From assembly GCA_019454165.1 (NCBI GenBank), contig CP075367.1, positions 2,024,805-2,088,804 on the forward strand: a DNA stretch of 64,000 nt, given 5' to 3'. The stretch is from Anaerolineales bacterium (GTDB lineage Bacteria; Chloroflexota; Anaerolineae; Anaerolineales; UBA11579). A model generated the notes under the pieces. It did not search any database, had not been told where the DNA came from, and saw only the letters and a list, made by a program, of their open reading frames with translations. Each line of letters begins with the position of its first letter. The first letter of the stretch is position 1. A program made the position numbers and the translations under genes. This document shows, piece by piece, positions 2,752-24,053 of this stretch.

Positions 2752-3750
2752 TTACGGAGCGGTCTGAATGTCGCCGGCGACGATGCCGTCAACCAGCGCC
2801 TGCATACCGTCAAAGCTGGTGGCTACACCCACACCACCGTTCTCCAAGGTACCTACGATCAGGCCACCACCCGCGCCGCCAGCCAAAGCTGCTTCGATCT
2901 GCTGGTACACAGTTGCGTCCATGTTCTTCAGCACCGAGTTGAGGATGACGCCAGCATACTCCGGAGCCGTCTGGGTCCAGTCGCTGTCCACACCGATCAG
3001 CCAGGCATTGCCGCGCTCCTGAATGGCAGCCGCGGAGCCGAGGCCAACGGGGCCAGCCACCGGCATGATGATGTCGGCGCCTTCGTCCATCAGGCTCTCA
3101 GCGAACGCACGACCATCATCCAGCGAGTCAAAGTTGCCGGTGAAGAGACCATCCTGAGCAGCGGGGTCCCAACCGAGCACCTGCACGTTGGCACCATTCT
3201 GCTGGTTGTAGTACTGCACACCATACCAGAAGCCGTCCATGAACACAGTCACCGGCGGAATGTTGATACCACCGAAGGTGCCCACGACGCCGGTCTGCGT
3301 GCTGGCGGCAGCGTGGTAACCCGCCAGGAAGGCAGCCTCGTCAGTGGCGAAAGCGTGACCGGTCAGGTTGGGGAAGTCCAGGTAGTCAACATCGATGATG
3401 CCGAAGGCCTGGTCAGGGTTGGCGGCCGCAGCGGCAGCGGTCGCATCGCCCATCAGGAAACCAACCGTGATGATGAGGTCACAACCCTGGTCGATCATGG
3501 CGTTGATGTTGGGCTCGTAATCGGCCTGCTCGTTGGATTCAACGAAGGCGCCTTCAATGCCGAGCTCATCAACAGCCTGTTCCACGCCAGCCCATGCGGT
3601 CTGGTTGAAGGAGGCATCATCAATGCCGCCCGTGTCGGTCACCTGGCAGGCCTTGAAGTCAGCCGCGCCCGGTGCCGTCCCACCGCAGGCAGCCAAAACA
3701 AGCGCAGCCGCCAGAAGCAGGCCAAACAAGGAATAGTGCTTCTTATTCAT
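2752..3750 (-). CDS. BMP family ABC transporter substrate-binding lipoprotein
   Basis: Extracytoplasmic nucleoside- or sugar-binding lipoprotein that feeds the permease and ATPase encoded downstream. It has a lipoprotein signal peptide: MNKK, then a hydrophobic core and the lipobox LAAC with Cys near residue 22. The mature part contains the BMP-family hallmark TGGIDDASFNQ near residue 40. The length of 332 aa is typical. The start is supported by AGGAGGAAG a few bases upstream. The gene is first in a minus-strand operon that continues through a terminator to the ATPase and permease. The family is certain; ligand identity cannot be read from sequence. Confidence 0.93.
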   Translation of the reverse strand: MNKKHYSLFGLLLAAALVLAACGGTAPGAADFKACQVTDTGGIDDASFNQTAWAGVEQAVDELGIEGAFVESNEQADYEPNINAMIDQGCDLIITVGFLMGDATAAAAAANPDQAFGIIDVDYLDFPNLTGHAFATDEAAFLAGYHAAASTQTGVVGTFGGINIPPVTVFMDGFWYGVQYYNQQNGANVQVLGWDPAAQDGLFTGNFDSLDDGRAFAESLMDEGADIIMPVAGPVGLGSAAAIQERGNAWLIGVDSDWTQTAPEYAGVILNSVLKNMDATVYQQIEAALAGGAGGGLIVGTLENGGVGVATSFDGMQALVDGIVAGDIQTAP

Positions 3751-3828
3751 ATACTCTCTTCCTCCTGGAAGGGTCTTGGAAGCGCGGGGCGCGTTTGGCC
3801 CCAGGCACCTCTCGTTTAGGGTTATGGG

Positions 3829-3858
3829 AGTCTATCATGAAGGAATTGGGGTGTAAAT
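3829..3858 (-). promoter_or_regulatory. Predicted sigma-70-type promoter for the BMP transporter operon
   Basis: On the minus strand, TTTACA (3858-3853) is followed after 18 bases by TAGACT (3834-3829). Transcription would start near 3822 and leave a leader of about 70 nt before the ATG at 3750. Confidence 0.5.
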
Positions 3859-3892
3859 CATTTGGGTGTAGCGCGATGAAATTTTAAGCCGT

Positions 3893-4861
3893 TTACTGAC
3901 CTGTTTGCCAAATCACCAGGCCACTTAGCAACTCTTGGATGGTAAGTTGCACAAAATCCCGGCGGGATTGGCTGAACAAGCTGGGATTAATGTGCTCGAG
4001 CGACAGCCCGGAGGCGGCGCTGGGCGCCTGCCCCGCCAGGGCTTGCTGCAACTGGGTCTGCAAGCTGTCGCCGGACTGGGCGGCCACAGACGCGATCCAC
4101 AAATGGGCCGCCTCTGCCGGCGGGGCCGAAGTGCCGATGAGCATGACCCCAAAACTGGCCAGGTATTGGGCCGCCCCGCTGTTCTCCATTTCCGGGGTGA
4201 TGTAGACCACGCGCACGAACTCGATCATGAACTGGTCCACCGCGGCCTGCCAGCTGTCCGGCGCGGCCTGGGCGGCCACCGGGTAGCGCGTGTTCGGCGG
4301 GCCGGCCGGCACGCAGGCGCCGCAAAAATAGGCCGCCCCGGCGCGGTACGCATCCACCAGGCCGGCGTCTGCCGGGCCGTACAGGATGCCGGTGCGCCAG
4401 TCATTGGCCGACATGGCCGCAATGTATCCGGCGATGAAGGCCGCATCCTGGCTGCCGGCAGCCGCCGCGGCCGACACGCTGATCACATTGGCCAATGATT
4501 CGGCGGGGGCAAAGCCCACGGTGACGAAGCGCGCCTGCGGAGCGGCCGCAGCCAGCTCCTGCATACCTGGATCCGCCAGCAACACGGCGGCCTGCAAGTT
4601 GGCGGGCAGCTCAGCCGCGCTGATGGCGGCGCGCTGCTCGAGTTGCAGGCCCTGCGCCGCGGCGAAGCCGCTGGCGGCGGCCTGCACTTCGGCCAGCAGG
4701 TTAGCGTCAGCGTCTTCGGGGGCGACGAGCAGCACGATGCCCGGCAACGGCGTAGGCGTTGCGGGCAAGGGCGTGGGGAGTTCGAGTGTGGGGGTAGGTT
4801 CTGCCGCGCCCAGCGAACAGGCGCTTAACAACAAGGCCAGCAAAAGATACGCAATTTTCAC
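3893..4861 (-). CDS. BMP-like substrate-binding lipoprotein, second copy
   Basis: A probable extracytoplasmic binding lipoprotein with the BMP/Med-type fold, only distantly like the neighbour at 2752-3750. The GTG at 4861 is chosen because it directly opens a signal peptide (VKIAYLLLALLLSAC, lipobox LSAC). A longer frame from 4957 exists but would bury the signal. A Thr/Pro linker follows the Cys. Later segments such as QDAAFIAGYIAAMSA and VVYITPEMENSG resemble the BMP family's ligand-binding core. A -10-like TATTAT ends 6 bases before the GTG, which fits a leaderless mRNA. No permease or ATPase is adjacent, so it may share the importer downstream or act as a sensor. Confidence 0.72.
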   Translation of the reverse strand: MKIAYLLLALLLSACSLGAAEPTPTLELPTPLPATPTPLPGIVLLVAPEDADANLLAEVQAAASGFAAAQGLQLEQRAAISAAELPANLQAAVLLADPGMQELAAAAPQARFVTVGFAPAESLANVISVSAAAAAGSQDAAFIAGYIAAMSANDWRTGILYGPADAGLVDAYRAGAAYFCGACVPAGPPNTRYPVAAQAAPDSWQAAVDQFMIEFVRVVYITPEMENSGAAQYLASFGVMLIGTSAPPAEAAHLWIASVAAQSGDSLQTQLQQALAGQAPSAASGLSLEHINPSLFSQSRRDFVQLTIQELLSGLVIWQTGQ

Positions 4862-4866
4862 TCCTG

Positions 4867-4873
4867 TATAATA
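4867..4873. promoter_or_regulatory. Shared, symmetric -10 element for divergent transcription
   Basis: The heptamer TATAATA reads as TATAAT on the plus strand (4867-4872) and TATTAT on the minus strand (4873-4868). The plus-strand reading serves the DUF389 gene at 4900 and the minus-strand reading serves the lipoprotein starting at 4861. No clear -35 is visible on either side. Confidence 0.5.
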
Positions 4874-4899
4874 ACCGCCACAGCCCCCTTCTGACAAAA

Positions 4900-6060
4900 A
4901 TGACCCTGCCGCCAAACCAAACACAGCCTGAAGACGATCCGCAACTGCCCGCCGCACGCCGCCGGCACGCGCGCCGCAGCTTGTTTGGCCCGCTGGGCGT
5001 GGACGAGCGCAGCCAGGCGCTGGAAGCGCTGGCGCGCAAGACCACGCCCACTTTTGATTTCTTTTTGTATTCGCTGCTGGCCGGCGCAGTCATCAGCCTG
5101 GGCCTCTTGCTCGATTCCGCGCTTCTTTTAGTATTGGCCATGCTGCTGGCGCCGCTGATGGCGCCCGCCGTCGGTATCGCCCTGGGCACCGCCCTCGGCT
5201 CCAGCAAGCATTTCCTGCGCAACCTGAGCGCGCTGTTGCTGGCAAGCGCCTTCGTCTTCGCCACGGGCGTAGTGGCCGGCCTGTTCAACACGGCCGAGCC
5301 GAACAGCGCCGGCGTGGCCGCGCTGCACGCCCTGCTGAGCTGGCCCAGCCTGGTGGCGATGGCCGTGGCCGGCGCGCTGACCGCTGGCACCCTGATACGT
5401 GAGCAGAATGCCAGTGCGGCCAGCTTGCTGTTGAGCTATGGCCTGTATGTGCCGCTGGCCGTGGCGGGCTTCGGGCTGAGCAGCGGGCAACTGCACCTGT
5501 GGCCGCACGGCCTGGTGGTGTTTGCCATTCACCTGGCCGTGGCGACCCTAAGCGGCGCCGGGGCGCTAGCCGCCATCGGCTTTCGCCCGCCCGCCTGGTA
5601 CGGCTATTCGTTCAGCGCGGCGGTCTTGCTGGCGGGCGTTCTGCTCTTCATCGGCTTCACCGGCGCCGGCGCAGCCTTCGGGGCGCGCATCGGCCTGCCT
5701 ACTCTGACCCCCAGCCCCACCCTGACCGCCAGCATCACTCCGACTCCATCCATCACACCCACACCGTCACCCACGGCCATGCCGTCGCGCACGCCTACGC
5801 GCACGCCCACCCTGACCCCCAGCCCCACCGCAACCCCCCAACTGGCCGTGATCGATGCGCAAGGCGGCGGGGCGGTGATCCGCGAGACGCCGGCCGGTAT
5901 GGCCATCACGACCATCCTCAACGGGCAGATCGTGGAGCTGCTGCCTGAGCCGCCGCAAGAGGCGGGCGGGCAGCTGTGGCTGCACGTGCGCCTGCAGGGG
6001 CGTGACCTGAGCGGCTGGATCCTGCAGAACTTGATGGCTACCACCACGCCGCAACCCTAG
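4900..6060 (+). CDS. DUF389 family membrane protein with C-terminal SH3-like domain
   Basis: An integral membrane protein of the DUF389 family, function unknown. After a hydrophilic N-terminus comes the family core (TFDFFLYSLLAGAVISLGLL, then LAMLLAPLMAPAVGIALG) with about six membrane segments up to residue 260. A Thr/Pro-rich linker of about 50 residues (TPTPSITPTPSP and similar) leads to a C-terminal bacterial SH3-like domain (residues 310-385, with ending DLSGWILQNL). DUF389 proteins usually lack this extracellular SH3 module, so the protein may contact the cell wall. The ATG at 4900 has no Shine-Dalgarno; a TATAAT lies 27 bases upstream. Confidence 0.8.
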   Translation: MTLPPNQTQPEDDPQLPAARRRHARRSLFGPLGVDERSQALEALARKTTPTFDFFLYSLLAGAVISLGLLLDSALLLVLAMLLAPLMAPAVGIALGTALGSSKHFLRNLSALLLASAFVFATGVVAGLFNTAEPNSAGVAALHALLSWPSLVAMAVAGALTAGTLIREQNASAASLLLSYGLYVPLAVAGFGLSSGQLHLWPHGLVVFAIHLAVATLSGAGALAAIGFRPPAWYGYSFSAAVLLAGVLLFIGFTGAGAAFGARIGLPTLTPSPTLTASITPTPSITPTPSPTAMPSRTPTRTPTLTPSPTATPQLAVIDAQGGGAVIRETPAGMAITTILNGQIVELLPEPPQEAGGQLWLHVRLQGRDLSGWILQNLMATTTPQP

Positions 6061-18689: not shown

Positions 18690-19091
18690 TTAGCCTGCCA
18701 CAGCCGGGCGGAACTTGTAGCCGTAGATCAACATGCCGCGCTCGTCGGTGGCGGAGCGCAGCAGGCGGGTGACCATTTCAACGGGCATGCCGATGGCGGG
18801 CTGCTGCTCGCCCAGGTCAGTGAGCTGGGCGGTGACCAGCGGGCCTTCGGCCAGCTTGACCATGGCCAGAGTGTACGGCGCCTGCTCGGCATAGCCTTCG
18901 GGCGCGTCGTAGACGGTGGTGAAAGAGTAGACCTCGCCCTTGCCGCTGAACTGGAAGAGGGTCTTGGCCTCCTCGCCACACTCGGGGCAGATGTCACGCG
19001 GCGGGAAGAGCTTGGCGTCACAATGCTCGCATACCTCACCGGTGAGCGAGTAGCGCTGTTTCTTTAGTCTCCAATGGCGCGGAATATCCAT
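18690..19091 (-). CDS. DUF35 zinc-ribbon/OB-fold protein (acyl-CoA-binding partner type)
   Basis: A small protein with a rubredoxin-like zinc ribbon and OB fold that binds CoA thioesters as a partner of thiolase-fold enzymes. The zinc site is CEHC (about residues 21-24) and CPEC (35-38); the OB part includes GKGEVYSFTTVYDAPEGY and PYTLAMVKLAEGPLV. In archaea this family forms a complex with acetoacetyl-CoA thiolase and HMG-CoA synthase. A thiolase-like gene and an archaeal-type synthase gene lie 1.4 kb away on the same strand, separated by map and a DinB-like gene. The 133 aa length is typical. A role in that complex is inferred, not shown. Confidence 0.88.
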   Translation of the reverse strand: MDIPRHWRLKKQRYSLTGEVCEHCDAKLFPPRDICPECGEEAKTLFQFSGKGEVYSFTTVYDAPEGYAEQAPYTLAMVKLAEGPLVTAQLTDLGEQQPAIGMPVEMVTRLLRSATDERGMLIYGYKFRPAVAG

Positions 19092-19204: not shown

Positions 19205-19945
19205 ATGACGGTTGAAACTGACGAAGAATTGAAGCGGTTGCAAGTCATTGGGCGCATTTGTGCCGCGGCCCTGCGCAAAATGCTGGCGGCGGCCGCGCCG
19301 GGTATGACCACGCGAGAGCTGGACGAGATCGGCCGCAGCTACCTGGAAAGCCAGGGCGCCCAATCGGCGCCCGAAGTCATGTACCAATTCCCCGGCGCCA
19401 CCTGCATCAGCGTGGCGCCGGTGATCGCTCACGGCGTGCCCGGCAAGTATGTGCTGCAACACGGCGACCTGATCCACATCGACGTATCCGCTGAGAAGGA
19501 TGGTTATTTTGCCGACACAGGCGCATCGATGCAGGTGGCCAAGGGCAGCAAAGAGGTGACCGCCCTACTGGATGCGACGAAGGCCACGTTGAAGAAGACA
19601 CTGGCGACGGCCAAGGCCGGAACCTTGATCAGTGATTTGGGCCAGACGATGCAGAGCGAGGCGCGCAAACGCGGCTACAACACGATCGCCCAGCTGGCCA
19701 GCCACGGCATCGGCCGCAAGCTGCACGAGTACCCCAGCGATGTGCTGAATGTACCCAACCCGCGCGACAAGCGCGTGCTGACCGAGGGGCTGGTGCTGGC
19801 CTTGGAGCCGTTCCTGACCGCCGGCTCCGGCCGGATCACGGAGGAGCGCGACGGCTGGTCGCTGCGCACGACGGACCGCAGTATCGCAGCCCAGTTCGAG
19901 CACACGATCGTGGTCACGCAGGGCAAGCCCATCATCCTGACATAG
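19205..19945 (+). CDS. map: Methionine aminopeptidase, type I
   Basis: Removes the N-terminal Met from nascent proteins. The M24 fold is complete, with metal ligands recognisable in LIHIDVSAEKDGYFADTGAS (two Asp), LASHGIGRKLHEYP (His), VLALEPFLT (Glu) and AQFEHTIVVT (Glu). At 246 aa it has the size of the short bacterial enzyme without an N-terminal extension. It begins at 19205 just after a TATAAT and lacks a Shine-Dalgarno, so it is probably leaderless. It lies on the plus strand between minus-strand genes of the mevalonate region, with its own terminator. A divergent member of the family (for example a Xaa-Pro peptidase) is less likely. Confidence 0.9.
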   Translation: MTVETDEELKRLQVIGRICAAALRKMLAAAAPGMTTRELDEIGRSYLESQGAQSAPEVMYQFPGATCISVAPVIAHGVPGKYVLQHGDLIHIDVSAEKDGYFADTGASMQVAKGSKEVTALLDATKATLKKTLATAKAGTLISDLGQTMQSEARKRGYNTIAQLASHGIGRKLHEYPSDVLNVPNPRDKRVLTEGLVLALEPFLTAGSGRITEERDGWSLRTTDRSIAAQFEHTIVVTQGKPIILT

Positions 19946-20018: not shown

Positions 20019-20453
20019 CTAGTTCAGCGCGTAGCGCTTGGCAAAGTCTGGCGGGAAGGGGATCTGGTTGGTGTAGAAGTAGCGAATGAGCTGGCCCTGG
20101 TGCTGGGCTTCGTGCTCCAGCAAGTCGAAGAGGATGTGCTGGCGCGGCTCGTCATAAGGTTGGCTGGCGGCGGCCAGGGCGGCCTGCAAGGCCGCCTGGG
20201 AGGCGGCCAAGGCAGCCTGCACGCTGGCAGGAACCTCAGGCTCCTTTAGACTGCAACTGAAACCCTGCCATGCGCCGGCCTCGAAGGCACGCGCATAACT
20301 CTCACGCGCCCCGACCACGCACCAGAACTGGGCGCCGATGCTATTTGAAGGCGACTCGCCGTTGTGGCTGGCGAGCTGCTCGCTGCTGAGCTGAGCGGCC
20401 AGGGCATTGGTGAGATTGGTGGCTTTGTCGAGTCGGGCAGTCAGCAGATCCAT
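20019..20453 (-). CDS. DinB-like protein at the end of the mevalonate operon
   Basis: A 144-aa four-helix-bundle protein of the DinB superfamily with the C-terminal His pattern LLEHEAQHQGQLIRYFY. Its function is unknown. Its ATG overlaps the stop of the thiolase-like gene by one base (TGATG), so its translation is coupled to that gene. It is only loosely similar to the DinB-like protein at 11925-12419. Why a DinB-like protein is coupled to isoprenoid genes is unclear; members of this superfamily bind metal and sometimes thiol cofactors. Confidence 0.78.
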   Translation of the reverse strand: MDLLTARLDKATNLTNALAAQLSSEQLASHNGESPSNSIGAQFWCVVGARESYARAFEAGAWQGFSCSLKEPEVPASVQAALAASQAALQAALAAASQPYDEPRQHILFDLLEHEAQHQGQLIRYFYTNQIPFPPDFAKRYALN

Positions 20454-21616
20454 CAGTCCTCCATGCGGCGCAGCACATGCGTCACGGCCGTGGCAGCCGG
20501 GCCGCCCAGGCTCTGCACCAGGGCGGTGCGTGCGCCGGCGATCTGGGCCCCACTCGCCTGGCCGCGCAGTTGCAGGGCGGCCTCGGCGGCCTGGTAGGCG
20601 CCGGTAGCGCCGCCGGGGAAGCCGCGGGCTTTCAGGCCGCCCAGGGTGGCGATGGGCATCTCACCAGTGAGCGAGATGGCGCCATTCTGGGCCCACTTCC
20701 AGCCCTCGCCGCGGGCGGCCAAGCCGGCCGCTTCCATGGAAAGGGCGCTATAGATGGAGAACGCGTCGAAGAGTTCGAAGAAATCTGCATCCTTGGGCAG
20801 GATGCCAGCCTGAGCGCAGGCACGCTCGATGGAGAGGCGGGCTGCGTTGAAGGTGAGCGGGTCTGGGCGGTCGTGCAGCGCCAGTGTGTCGGAGACGGCG
20901 CTGGAGCCGATGATCTCCACCAGCGGGTGCGAGAACTTTGGCGGCAGCAGCTCGCGCCGGGTCAGGATGAGGGCGGCAGCGCCATCCGCATTGGGGGCGA
21001 CATCAAACATGTTGAGCGGCGCACTGACCATGCCGGCCTTGGCATAGGTCTCAGGCTTGACGGCCTTCTGGAACATGGCGTTCGGGTTATGGGCGCCGTT
21101 AGCGTGGGCAGTGAGCGGGAAGCCGGCCAGCGCGTCCTGTGGCAGCTTGTGCTCGTGCAAGTAGCGCTGCGCCAGCAGGGCGGCCTGTGCGGTGAGGGTG
21201 AGACCCTGCTCGGCTTCGTAGTCCGTGTCAGAGCCCATCGCCAATGCAGCCTCGACCTCAGCGGGGACCTGCTCGCTGAGCTTCTCGACGCCGAGCACCA
21301 TGGCGGCGTCCACCTGGCCGCTGGCGACCGCCAGCATGCCAACCCGCAGGGCCATGGCGGCCGAGGCGCCGGCGGCCTCGATGGTGGCGGCTTCAATGCC
21401 GGTCAGGCCGGCAAAGTCGGCCAGCAGGGTGCCGAGTTGGGCTTGCTTGGAGAGCTGGCCGGCCAGCATATTGCCGACGTACAGCGCGTTGGGGCGCAGG
21501 CCGCCAGCATCCTGCATGGCGGCTTCCATGGCCTGGAAGGCCAGCTCGCGCAGGGAAATGTTCCAATGTTCGTTTACGGGGGTAAGCCCGATGCCAGCAA
21601 TGATGACGTTGGTCAT
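20453..21616 (-). CDS. Thiolase-fold protein lacking catalytic residues (HMG-CoA synthase partner?)
   Basis: Thiolase-superfamily protein (387 aa, SCP-x/archaeal acetoacetyl-CoA thiolase type) encoded directly downstream of HMG-CoA synthase. The fold is recognisable from end to end: IIAGIGLTPV at the start, the nucleophile-elbow region IEAAGASAAMAL, ADFFELFDAFSIYS, and GGLKARGFPGGATGAYQ. Every catalytic position is changed. Residue 83 is Gly (GGC) where the family has Cys; residue 283 is Phe where HDAF has His; residue 333 is Phe where GHP has His. The Asn of the NxxGG motif is also absent. The frame is intact, so it is not a plain pseudogene. It may be a structural partner, or a thiolase-like aldolase of the Ltp2 kind, which works with DUF35 proteins. 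Active thiolase is unlikely. Confidence 0.82.
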   Translation of the reverse strand: MTNVIIAGIGLTPVNEHWNISLRELAFQAMEAAMQDAGGLRPNALYVGNMLAGQLSKQAQLGTLLADFAGLTGIEAATIEAAGASAAMALRVGMLAVASGQVDAAMVLGVEKLSEQVPAEVEAALAMGSDTDYEAEQGLTLTAQAALLAQRYLHEHKLPQDALAGFPLTAHANGAHNPNAMFQKAVKPETYAKAGMVSAPLNMFDVAPNADGAAALILTRRELLPPKFSHPLVEIIGSSAVSDTLALHDRPDPLTFNAARLSIERACAQAGILPKDADFFELFDAFSIYSALSMEAAGLAARGEGWKWAQNGAISLTGEMPIATLGGLKARGFPGGATGAYQAAEAALQLRGQASGAQIAGARTALVQSLGGPAATAVTHVLRRMED

Positions 21617-21633: not shown

Positions 21634-21693
21634 AAGTGATCAGTGGCTAGTGAGTCGGAGAACTGCTCACGGTTTACTGTTCACTGATCACTT
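21634..21693. repeat. 12-bp inverted repeat between HMG-CoA synthase and thiolase-like genes
   Basis: AAGTGATCAGTG (21634-21645) and CACTGATCACTT (21682-21693) are perfect inverted copies. The space between them contains more AGTGA/ACTGTTCACT wording. The right arm covers the stop codon of the synthase gene. It belongs to the same degenerate family as the repeats at 12405 and 56629. Confidence 0.65.
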
Positions 21694-22773
21694 CATTGTC
21701 AACTTGCCGCGCATACGTACATACGCGGCGTAATCGATCTCGGTGCGGCGTTCGATATATTGCTCGGTGGTGGTGACGAGCTGCGGTTTGCCGGCGATCT
21801 TGTCGGTGACGCGCAGCACCATCGCATCCGAGCCAGCGCCGGAGCCGAAGGAGACCAACATGATGCGCTCACCCGGCTTGGCAATATCCAGAATGGCGGT
21901 CAGGCCGATGATGGCCGCGCCGGAATAGGTGTTGCCGATGCGCGGCACCAGCAAGCCGGTCTTGATCTGCTCCGGCGTGAAGCCGAGCATCTGCCCGGCG
22001 CGCTGCGGGAACTTGGCGTTGGGCTGGTGGAAGACGGCGTAGGCGTAATCCTCCGGCTTGGTGTTGGTGGCCTGGAACATGGCCTCGCCGGCGGTGGTGA
22101 TGTGCTTGAAATAGGCCGGCTCGCCGGTGAAGCGCTGGCCGTGCTCGGGGTACTTGGCATATTGGCGACGCCAAAAGTCCGGCGTGTCGGTGACGAAGGA
22201 ATAGGTGCACTCGATCTCGGCCAGCGACTCCTCACCGGGGCCGATGACGAAGGCAGCCCCGCCCGCCCCGGCGGTGTATTCGAGCGCGTCACCCGGGCGG
22301 CCCTGGGCGGTGTCCATGCCGATGGCCATGGCGTACGGGGCCATGCGCGAGCCAACGAAACCCATCGCCGCCACCATGGCTTCGGTGCCGGCTTTGCAGG
22401 CGAACTCCCAGTCGGCGGCCTGGATGTTGGTGGAAGCCCCGATGGCCTCGGCCACGAGCGTGGAGGTGGGCTTGACCGCATACGGATGCGACTCGGAGCC
22501 GACCCATACGGCGCGCAGCTCGCTGGCAGGCACCTGGGCGCGGGCCACGGCGTTGCGGGCGGCCTCGATCGACATGGTGATGACGTCTTCATCCAGCCCG
22601 GGGACGGACTTCTCGATGATGGGCAGACCCGCGGTGCCATCAGTCCACACACGGGCAACTTCCTTGGCGGGCAAACGATAGCGCGGCACATAGGCGCCGT
22701 AGCCTACGATGCCGACGGGATGCTCAGGCTTGAGCAGGCGAGCCGTTTCGTGCTGGTGGGTATGCTCTGTCAT
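21688..22773 (-). CDS. HMG-CoA synthase, archaeal type
   Basis: Condenses acetyl-CoA with acetoacetyl-CoA to HMG-CoA, the second step of the mevalonate pathway. The archaeal subtype is plain: [63 protein letters not shown]. Catalytic residues are kept: Glu 94 (in GSESHP), Cys 126 (EFACKAG) and His 249 ([10 protein letters not shown]). The ATG at 22773 overlaps the reductase stop (ATGA) and has AAAGGA 9 bases upstream; the ATG at 22782 has no room for a site. Order in the operon: reductase, synthase, thiolase-like, DinB-like. The synthase should be active, unlike the thiolase-like protein after it. Confidence 0.95.
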
Positions 22774-24053
22774 CGGTTCCATTCCTTTAGCAGTTCTTCG
22801 GCGCGGTCAATGCGCACGGTCTTCTCGGATACCAGTTGGGCGGCCAGCTTCTCGACCTGTTCGCCTTGCGCCCCGGCCGCAATGGCCACCTGGCGGGCGT
22901 GCAGGCTCATGTGGCCGCGTTGGATGCCCTCGGTGGCCAGGGCGCGCAGGGCGGCCAGGTTCTGGGCCAGCCCTACGGAAACGATGATCTCGGCCAGTTG
23001 TGCCGCGGTGGTGACGCCCATCAGCTTGAGGGCGGCTTGCGCGGTAGGATGCACTTTGGTGGCGCCGCCGACAATGCCGACCGCCATGGGCAGCTCCAGG
23101 CTGCCGACCAGATCGCCCTCGGGCGAGACGCCCCAGGTGCTGAGCGAGGTGTAGCGGCCTGTATGAGCGGCGTAGGCATGCGCTCCAGCTTCCACGGCGC
23201 GCCAGTCATTGCCAGTGGCGATGACCACGGCGTCAATGCCGTTCATGATGCCCTTGTTATGGGTAGCGGCGCGGTACGGGTCGGCGGCGGCGAAGGCCCA
23301 GGCCTCCACAATGCCGTCGCGCACTTGCTCGGCTGAGAAATCAGCGAAGGCCAGCTCGCTAAGTTTGATTGTGCACTCGGCGCGGGCCAGGCGGCGGTCG
23401 GCGAGGTTGCTGAGGATACGCAGGTGGACGCGGCCGCCGGTGAGCGCCTCAATGCGCGGGGCCAGGCGCTCGCAAGCCGTGTTGATGGCGTTGGCGCCCA
23501 TAGCGTCCCGCACGTCGTAGATGAGATGCAGCACCAGGAAGGGGCCAATGGGGGATTCAGGGATGCGGCGCACAACCAGCTCACGCGGACCACCGCCCAG
23601 TTTGAGGAGGATGGGGTCGATCTGAGCGGCCTCGGCTAGCAGGTCTGGCGTGGCGGCTTCGAGGGCGGCAGCCGCCGCGTCGAGATCAGCGACATCCAGC
23701 AGCTGCATCTGGCCGATCATCAGCGGCGCGTCGGTGCTGGCGGTGAAACCGCCAGCGGCACGCGCCAGCTTGGCCATGAAGGAAGCCCCGGCTACGACAG
23801 AAGGCTCCTCGACCGCCATAGGCACCAGCACCTCGCGGCCATTGACCACAAAGTTGAGCCCCAGGCCCAACGGCAAGCTGTGCACACCGATGGCATTCTC
23901 GACCATGTGGTCAGCAGCTTCGGCCACGATGCCGCCGAGGGCCAGGGCCTGCAACTGGTCCTGGGACAGTACGCCCAGGGCACGCAGACGCTCGTGGCGC
24001 GCTTCTATTGAAAGATCGTAAAAACCGGGAATGCGGGATGAAGGCGAATTCAT
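22770..24053 (-). CDS. mvaA: HMG-CoA reductase, class II
   Basis: Reduces HMG-CoA to mevalonate (or the reverse) with NAD(P)H. At 427 aa without membrane anchor it is the class II bacterial type. Catalytic residues are visible: Glu in [12 protein letters not shown] (about residue 88), Lys in [13 protein letters not shown], Asp in the same segment, and His in [10 protein letters not shown] near the C-terminus. The segment [19 protein letters not shown] is the usual class II opening. It is the first gene of the operon and overlaps the synthase start by four bases. With the synthase next to it, the biosynthetic direction is more likely than mevalonate breakdown. Confidence 0.95.

Follow-up and report, generated by a model that had tools for sequence, protein, structure and literature searches.

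Why does a mevalonate operon keep a thiolase-like gene whose product has none of the catalytic residues of a thiolase? This question is raised by a locus in a window of 64,000 nucleotides (the whole stretch of DNA analysed here), which is part of a single-contig 2.24 Mb genome of an Anaerolineales bacterium of the phylum Chloroflexota. An earlier reading made from the sequence alone had offered two answers, either a scaffold that keeps an enzyme complex together while another thiolase makes acetoacetyl-CoA, or an enzyme with a new C-C chemistry.

The operon and the catalytic positions of the thiolase-like protein

The features of the locus are as follows.

18690..19091, minus strand: DUF35 protein with a ChsH2-type zinc ribbon (CxxC...CxxC) and an OB domain (PF12172, PF01796)
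19205-19945, plus strand: M24 peptidase gene, between the DinB-type gene and the DUF35 gene
20019..20453, minus strand: DinB-family protein (PF05163), downstream of the pseudothiolase
20453..21616, minus strand: thiolase-fold protein without the catalytic Cys/His/His (pseudothiolase), intact frame, 387 aa
20618..20620, minus strand: codon 333, TTC, Phe where the GHP His is expected
20768..20770, minus strand: codon 283, TTC, Phe where the HDxF His is expected
21368..21370, minus strand: codon 83, GGC, Gly where the nucleophile Cys is expected
21688..22782, minus strand: archaeal-type HMG-CoA synthase (HMGCS), catalytic residues intact (TIGR00748, 519 bits, cut-off 353)
22770..24053, minus strand: HMG-CoA reductase (HMGR; TIGR00532, 400 bits, cut-off 260; PF00368)

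By full-length sequence and fold similarity, the pseudothiolase is an archaeal-type, DUF35-linked thiolase. It matched PRK06064 (353 bits, below the cut-off of 420) and AcCoTHIOL_METTL (290 against a cut-off of 600) over its full length, and it did not reach the cut-off of the classical bacterial thiolase family TIGR01930 (41.5 bits against 240.55). The single-chain model had a mean pLDDT of 92.9. The best structural match of the protein was the thiolase of the archaeal complex (6esq), with a Z value of 60.6 and an rmsd of 1.5 A over 383 residues. The value for 7yvy was 58.9, within about two units of the best, and those for the steroid aldolases Sal and Ltp2 were 48.5 and 48.1. The closest solved sequence was 7yvy (Pyrococcus furiosus PFC_04095; phmmer 328 bits, 44-46% identity).

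Alignment to the solved relatives 7yvy and 6esq placed Gly at the position of the nucleophile Cys (C83G), Phe at that of the HDxF His (H283F), and Phe at that of the GHP His (H333F). These three losses and the intact reading frame agree with the sequence-only reading. That reading had also counted the missing Asn of the NxxGG motif as a lesion, and this point did not hold. That is, 7yvy and the Cys-bearing Chloroflexota relatives likewise have TxGGLKARGHP, and the absence of the Asn is no lesion because canonical members of the subfamily are also without it. The pseudothiolase and 7yvy share the motif TxGGLKARG, but only 7yvy has Cys/His/His. Judged from its sequence, the pseudothiolase would be unable to run the known thiolase mechanism, having no nucleophile Cys, HDxF His or GHP His.

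As for the coupling of the gene to its neighbours noted in the sequence-only reading, the HMGR and HMGCS genes overlap by 13 nt, a gap of 71 nt lies between HMGCS and the pseudothiolase, and the stop of the pseudothiolase overlaps the DinB-type gene by 1 nt. The gene order in most loci was HMGR-HMGCS-thiolase-DUF35, with the three partners linked and HMGCS intact. The pseudothiolase and DUF35 genes are usually adjacent elsewhere in the order; their separation by the M24 peptidase gene (on the opposite strand) and the DinB-family gene is specific to this genus. Among the loci compared, the DinB-family gene was seen only in those of the same genus and stands outside the general operon. When DUF35 was outside the operon, it was found elsewhere in the genome, clearly in 15 and weakly in 2 of the 17 genomes. 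The DUF35 protein is presumed to be the bridge of the complex.

HMGCS retained its catalytic Glu, Cys, His and Asn, which are residues 97, 129, 252 and 284 when counted from the upstream ATG, or 94, 126, 249 and 281 from the next ATG. The numbering 94/126/249 in the sequence-only reading is that from the second ATG. All four residues were invariant in 95 of the 95 compared operons. No fixed (compensating) differences in HMGCS or DUF35 were found between the Cys-bearing and the Cys-less operons. In two genomes (G049 and G055) no thiolase was linked to HMGR-HMGCS-DUF35, but both had a Cys/His/His thiolase at another place. It follows from this survey of DUF35 and HMGCS, G049 and G055 included, that, in those genomes of the order that were examined and are sufficiently complete, the HMGCS of archaeal type is accompanied by a thiolase-fold partner, live or dead. 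As a proof of contact, we looked for natural fusions that join the pseudothiolase to HMGCS or to DUF35, and none was found.

Several loci had unusual arrangements. In L099 (3639-5963), HMGR and HMGCS are fused in a single frame that encodes about 775 aa, and HMGR was matched in two pieces in L085. The DUF35 proteins of L048, L097 and L127, which are linked to Cys-less thiolases, are without the usual CxxC...CxxC zinc-ribbon pattern. In the operon L061, a Cys-less copy and a Cys/His/His thiolase (4525-5691 and 2763-3920, minus strand) flank the DUF35 gene, which makes it a natural test case.

Conservation and phylogeny of the Cys-less copies

The sequence-only reading had reasoned that canonical residues in related genomes would point to local decay or an assembly error. 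We found the opposite: Gly, Phe and Phe at positions 83, 283 and 333 are shared by nine more genomes of this genus (ten with that of the window). The Cys was absent in all members of the family that had a match, and in most operons of the order. The gene is under purifying selection, with dN/dS values within the genus of 0.06-0.15, which agree in range with the 0.03-0.15 of HMGCS and the 0.05-0.16 of HMGR.

We collected about 160 homologues and left the three catalytic columns out of the tree. In the first tree the Cys-less copies linked to HMGCS fell into a single clade, and in the phylum-wide tree this clade had an SH-aLRT value of 99 for 72 rows, or 92 when the two deepest rows were included (74 rows). 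Thus, the Cys-less linked copies have a single origin on the tree; its deep branching is provisional because the tree came from a quick search without bootstrap. The clade takes in copies from other Chloroflexota families (f26, f27 and f37), among which G/Y/N, G/T/D and G/S/D occur at positions 83/283/333. No member of the clade regains the Cys. On the second tree, at least two switches between Cys and non-Cys are needed, one of which belongs to an unlinked paralogue. Copies linked to HMGCS were either Cys-bearing or Cys-less, and those unlinked copies that belong to the closest canonical group all had Cys/His/His. One copy, L125, was placed among the Cys-bearing copies in the first tree.

The catalytic columns vary within the clade. 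Residue 83 (n = 67) was Gly in 46, Asp in 10, Glu in 7, Gln in 3 and Ser in 1; Gly is perhaps more frequent here than free drift predicts. Residue 283 was His, Phe, Tyr, Asp, Ser, Trp or Cys, and also Thr in the G/T/D copies, and residue 333 was Asn, Phe, Tyr, His, Asp or Glu. The minimum numbers of changes at 83, 283 and 333 were 9, 18 and 14 in the clade, against 0, 0 and 1 in the 56 Cys-bearing relatives.

Other positions remained under constraint. Forty of the 62 positions that are invariant in the Cys-bearing relatives stay nearly invariant in the clade, and outside the catalytic columns residues such as H171, N173, D211, K329 and R331 are invariant in both groups. W306, S56 and A84 are newly conserved in the clade, and N145 is replaced with A145. 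We therefore think that the clade is not simply drifting, because it has constraints of its own. Positions 122-142, in what is presumably the lid region, belong to the more relaxed part of the protein. Around the four catalytic loops, a permutation test over positions conserved in the Cys-bearing relatives gave no significant excess of relaxation (p 0.094), and we therefore claim relaxation for the catalytic columns alone. The mean pairwise identity across the clade was 0.57 for the pseudothiolase and 0.72 for HMGCS, that is, the pseudothiolase diverged somewhat faster.

Supply of acetoacetyl-CoA

An active thiolase elsewhere in the genome had been suggested as the source of acetoacetyl-CoA. 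Our search of the window's own genome, for which all genome-wide statements rest on targeted searches, found two canonical (classical) thiolases with complete Cys, His and CxG motifs. Mevalonate kinase (MVK), isopentenyl phosphate kinase (IPK) and the decarboxylase were over their cut-offs in the same genome, and DXR gave no match (type II DXR was outside the search). Mevalonate therefore seems, from these matches, to be the only isoprenoid route of this bacterium. An alternative mevalonate route has been described for Chloroflexi (PMC3857490), and the enzyme set of this genome matches it.

Every genome checked that carries a Cys-less linked copy has another thiolase. This was the case in about 95 of about 95 genomes, 91 of them with a TIGR01930 thiolase and 4 with an unlinked Cys/His/His homologue; these totals, like the six given next, were summed over several searches, and there is some redundancy and relatedness among the genomes. 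In six genomes the linked copy was the only thiolase detected, and all six copies keep Cys/His/His. A TIGR01930 thiolase was absent in 3 of 61 relatives, which are exactly the family with a Cys/His/His operon thiolase. In the second genome set, the four Cys-less genomes without TIGR01930 each had an unlinked Cys/His/His homologue, and the operon copy stood alone in three Cys-bearing genomes. Genome G136 also fits the pattern, though its other homologues were sought at a strict threshold only.

A Fisher test on this co-occurrence gave a p value of 2e-5, which serves as an indication only, as the lineages are non-independent and the counts partly overlap. We take the co-occurrence as support and not as proof, because the genomes are redundant and related. 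Most of them are MAGs, and the gene absences are therefore soft. Moreover, a canonical thiolase would be expected in most genomes anyway.

Possible roles beside HMG-CoA synthase

From the above results, we consider it probable that the pseudothiolase is a pseudoenzyme subunit of a thiolase/DUF35/HMGCS complex, and that acetoacetyl-CoA comes from separate thiolases. That is, an archaeal-type acetoacetyl-CoA thiolase would have lost its thiolysis and condensation chemistry while retaining its fold and its position in the complex. Most likely it acts as the structural third partner that docks DUF35 and HMGCS and contributes to the shared CoA site. The acetoacetyl-CoA made by the separate thiolases would then enter as a diffusible substrate, with no hand-on inside the complex. 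Of the two answers in the sequence-only reading, the scaffold is the one that conservation, purifying selection, the co-occurrence of genes and the phylogeny favour.

The closest known systems bear on this role. The archaeal complex of Methanothermococcus thermolithotrophicus (6esq/6et9) is alike in fold, in full-length homology and in linkage to an archaeal-type HMGCS and DUF35, but the nucleophile Cys and the two His of the HDxF and GHP motifs are missing from the pseudothiolase. The PhlABC acyltransferase of Pseudomonas protegens has the same three-part architecture and likewise retains one subunit without catalytic residues. It is a mirror image of the present case, the HMGCS-like PhlA having lost its residues and the thiolase-like PhlC being active. 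PhlA is without Cys and Glu, yet it is required for a functional PhlABC complex (PMC6392133). The thiolase-like ST0096 of Sulfolobus tokodaii (4yzo; 26-29% identity) is also without the nucleophile Cys (Ser is aligned), but unlike the pseudothiolase it keeps HD and GHP. We found no function for ST0096 in the open-licence literature.

The rationale of the archaeal complex is channelling: HMGCS pulls the unfavourable thiolase step, and acetoacetyl-CoA is not released. A Chloroflexota lineage that kept the assembly gene and dropped the thiolase residues would have separated the structure from the channelling. The channelling idea becomes directly testable with natural variants, since operons exist that have a live thiolase, a dead one or both. 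In much of Chloroflexota, the label acetyl-CoA acetyltransferase is probably a misannotation of this gene. Throughout the phylum, the thiolase-like gene of the operon with which isoprenoid synthesis begins has lost its thiolase residues and was nevertheless retained over a very long time; most likely its product serves the enzyme of the following step as a structural subunit. We found no description of the Cys-less operon thiolase of Chloroflexota in the open-licence literature.

The main rival is that the pseudothiolase binds acetoacetyl-CoA or acetyl-CoA unreacted and gates or regulates HMGCS, as a substrate-holding or sensing subunit. The CoA of the archaeal complex lies at an interface formed by all three proteins (PMC6392133), and the residues invariant in both groups (H171, N173, D211, K329, R331) as well as the newly conserved W306, S56 and A84 are in line with such a role. 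In contrast, the presumed lid region is among the more relaxed positions. We regard this explanation as rather unlikely. A somewhat smaller chance is given to an undescribed mechanism, in which the emptied pocket would take free acetoacetyl-CoA and hand it to HMGCS, or would carry out a Cys-free C-C reaction. If true, a CoA-presenting subunit or a Cys-free C-C reaction would add a new type of function to the mevalonate pathway.

It is improbable that the pseudothiolase is an aldolase or other C-C enzyme on a Cys-free thiolase fold. The steroid aldolases Sal and Ltp2 (9myr, 6ok1) do resemble it in their thiolase fold, and they too pair with a DUF35 protein and carry Gly in place of the nucleophile (PMC12329534); in the present case, DUF35 is known from the genes. 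Some clade members have YDAF (GYN). The aldolases, however, depend on an essential Tyr (YDxF), and Y302F inactivates Sal (PMC12329534). This Tyr is Phe in the pseudothiolase, which makes an aldolase unlikely, and the linkage here is to mevalonate genes and not to steroid genes. Across the clade the Tyr column is H/F/Y/W/C/D/S/T, with 18 changes at position 283, and position 83 is also D/E/Q/S. An aldolase as the clade-wide function is ruled out by the variable Tyr column. More generally, a shared new chemistry is disfavoured because no alternative polar set is conserved at 83/283/333. The earlier proposal of a new C-C chemistry thus found no support, the catalytic columns varying freely and the Tyr of Sal and Ltp2 being inconsistent in the other members. 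Some clade members may possibly retain a residual non-thiolase chemistry, because one or both His are kept (GHN, DHH).

Still more doubtful is a mixed oligomer in which the pseudothiolase modulates a canonical thiolase. Chain-length factors pair with ketosynthases in this manner. In many genomes of the order the subfamily is also represented by an unlinked homologue with Cys/His/His, and L061 holds both kinds in one operon. In the window's own genome, however, there is no Cys-bearing homologue of the subfamily, its only other member is a Cys-to-Thr paralogue, and the canonical thiolases belong to another subfamily. That the gene is a relic in decay, or an artefact of assembly, is hardly credible: the loss of all three catalytic residues and the somewhat faster divergence would fit it, but assembly error and local decay are ruled out by the phylum-wide conservation and the low dN/dS, and the listed copies of the same genus show no frame damage.

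Other paralogues with changes at the Cys position were also observed. The second subfamily member of the window's own genome (L004, G000:C1:1517159-1518268, minus strand) has Thr at the Cys position and keeps HDAF and GHP. Copies from the same genus (L203-L206) share this Thr, and the relatives L207-L209 have Ser, Met or Cys. As judged by eye, L004 adjoins one gene for an apparent FAD subunit of a xanthine dehydrogenase and another for an apparent XdhC-type protein. Other genomes of the order (L244, L245 and L246) hold a thiolase-like paralogue that is more distant (33-36% identity); its Cys position is occupied by Pro (ENGPASGG), and it keeps HDAF, GHP and NxSGG.
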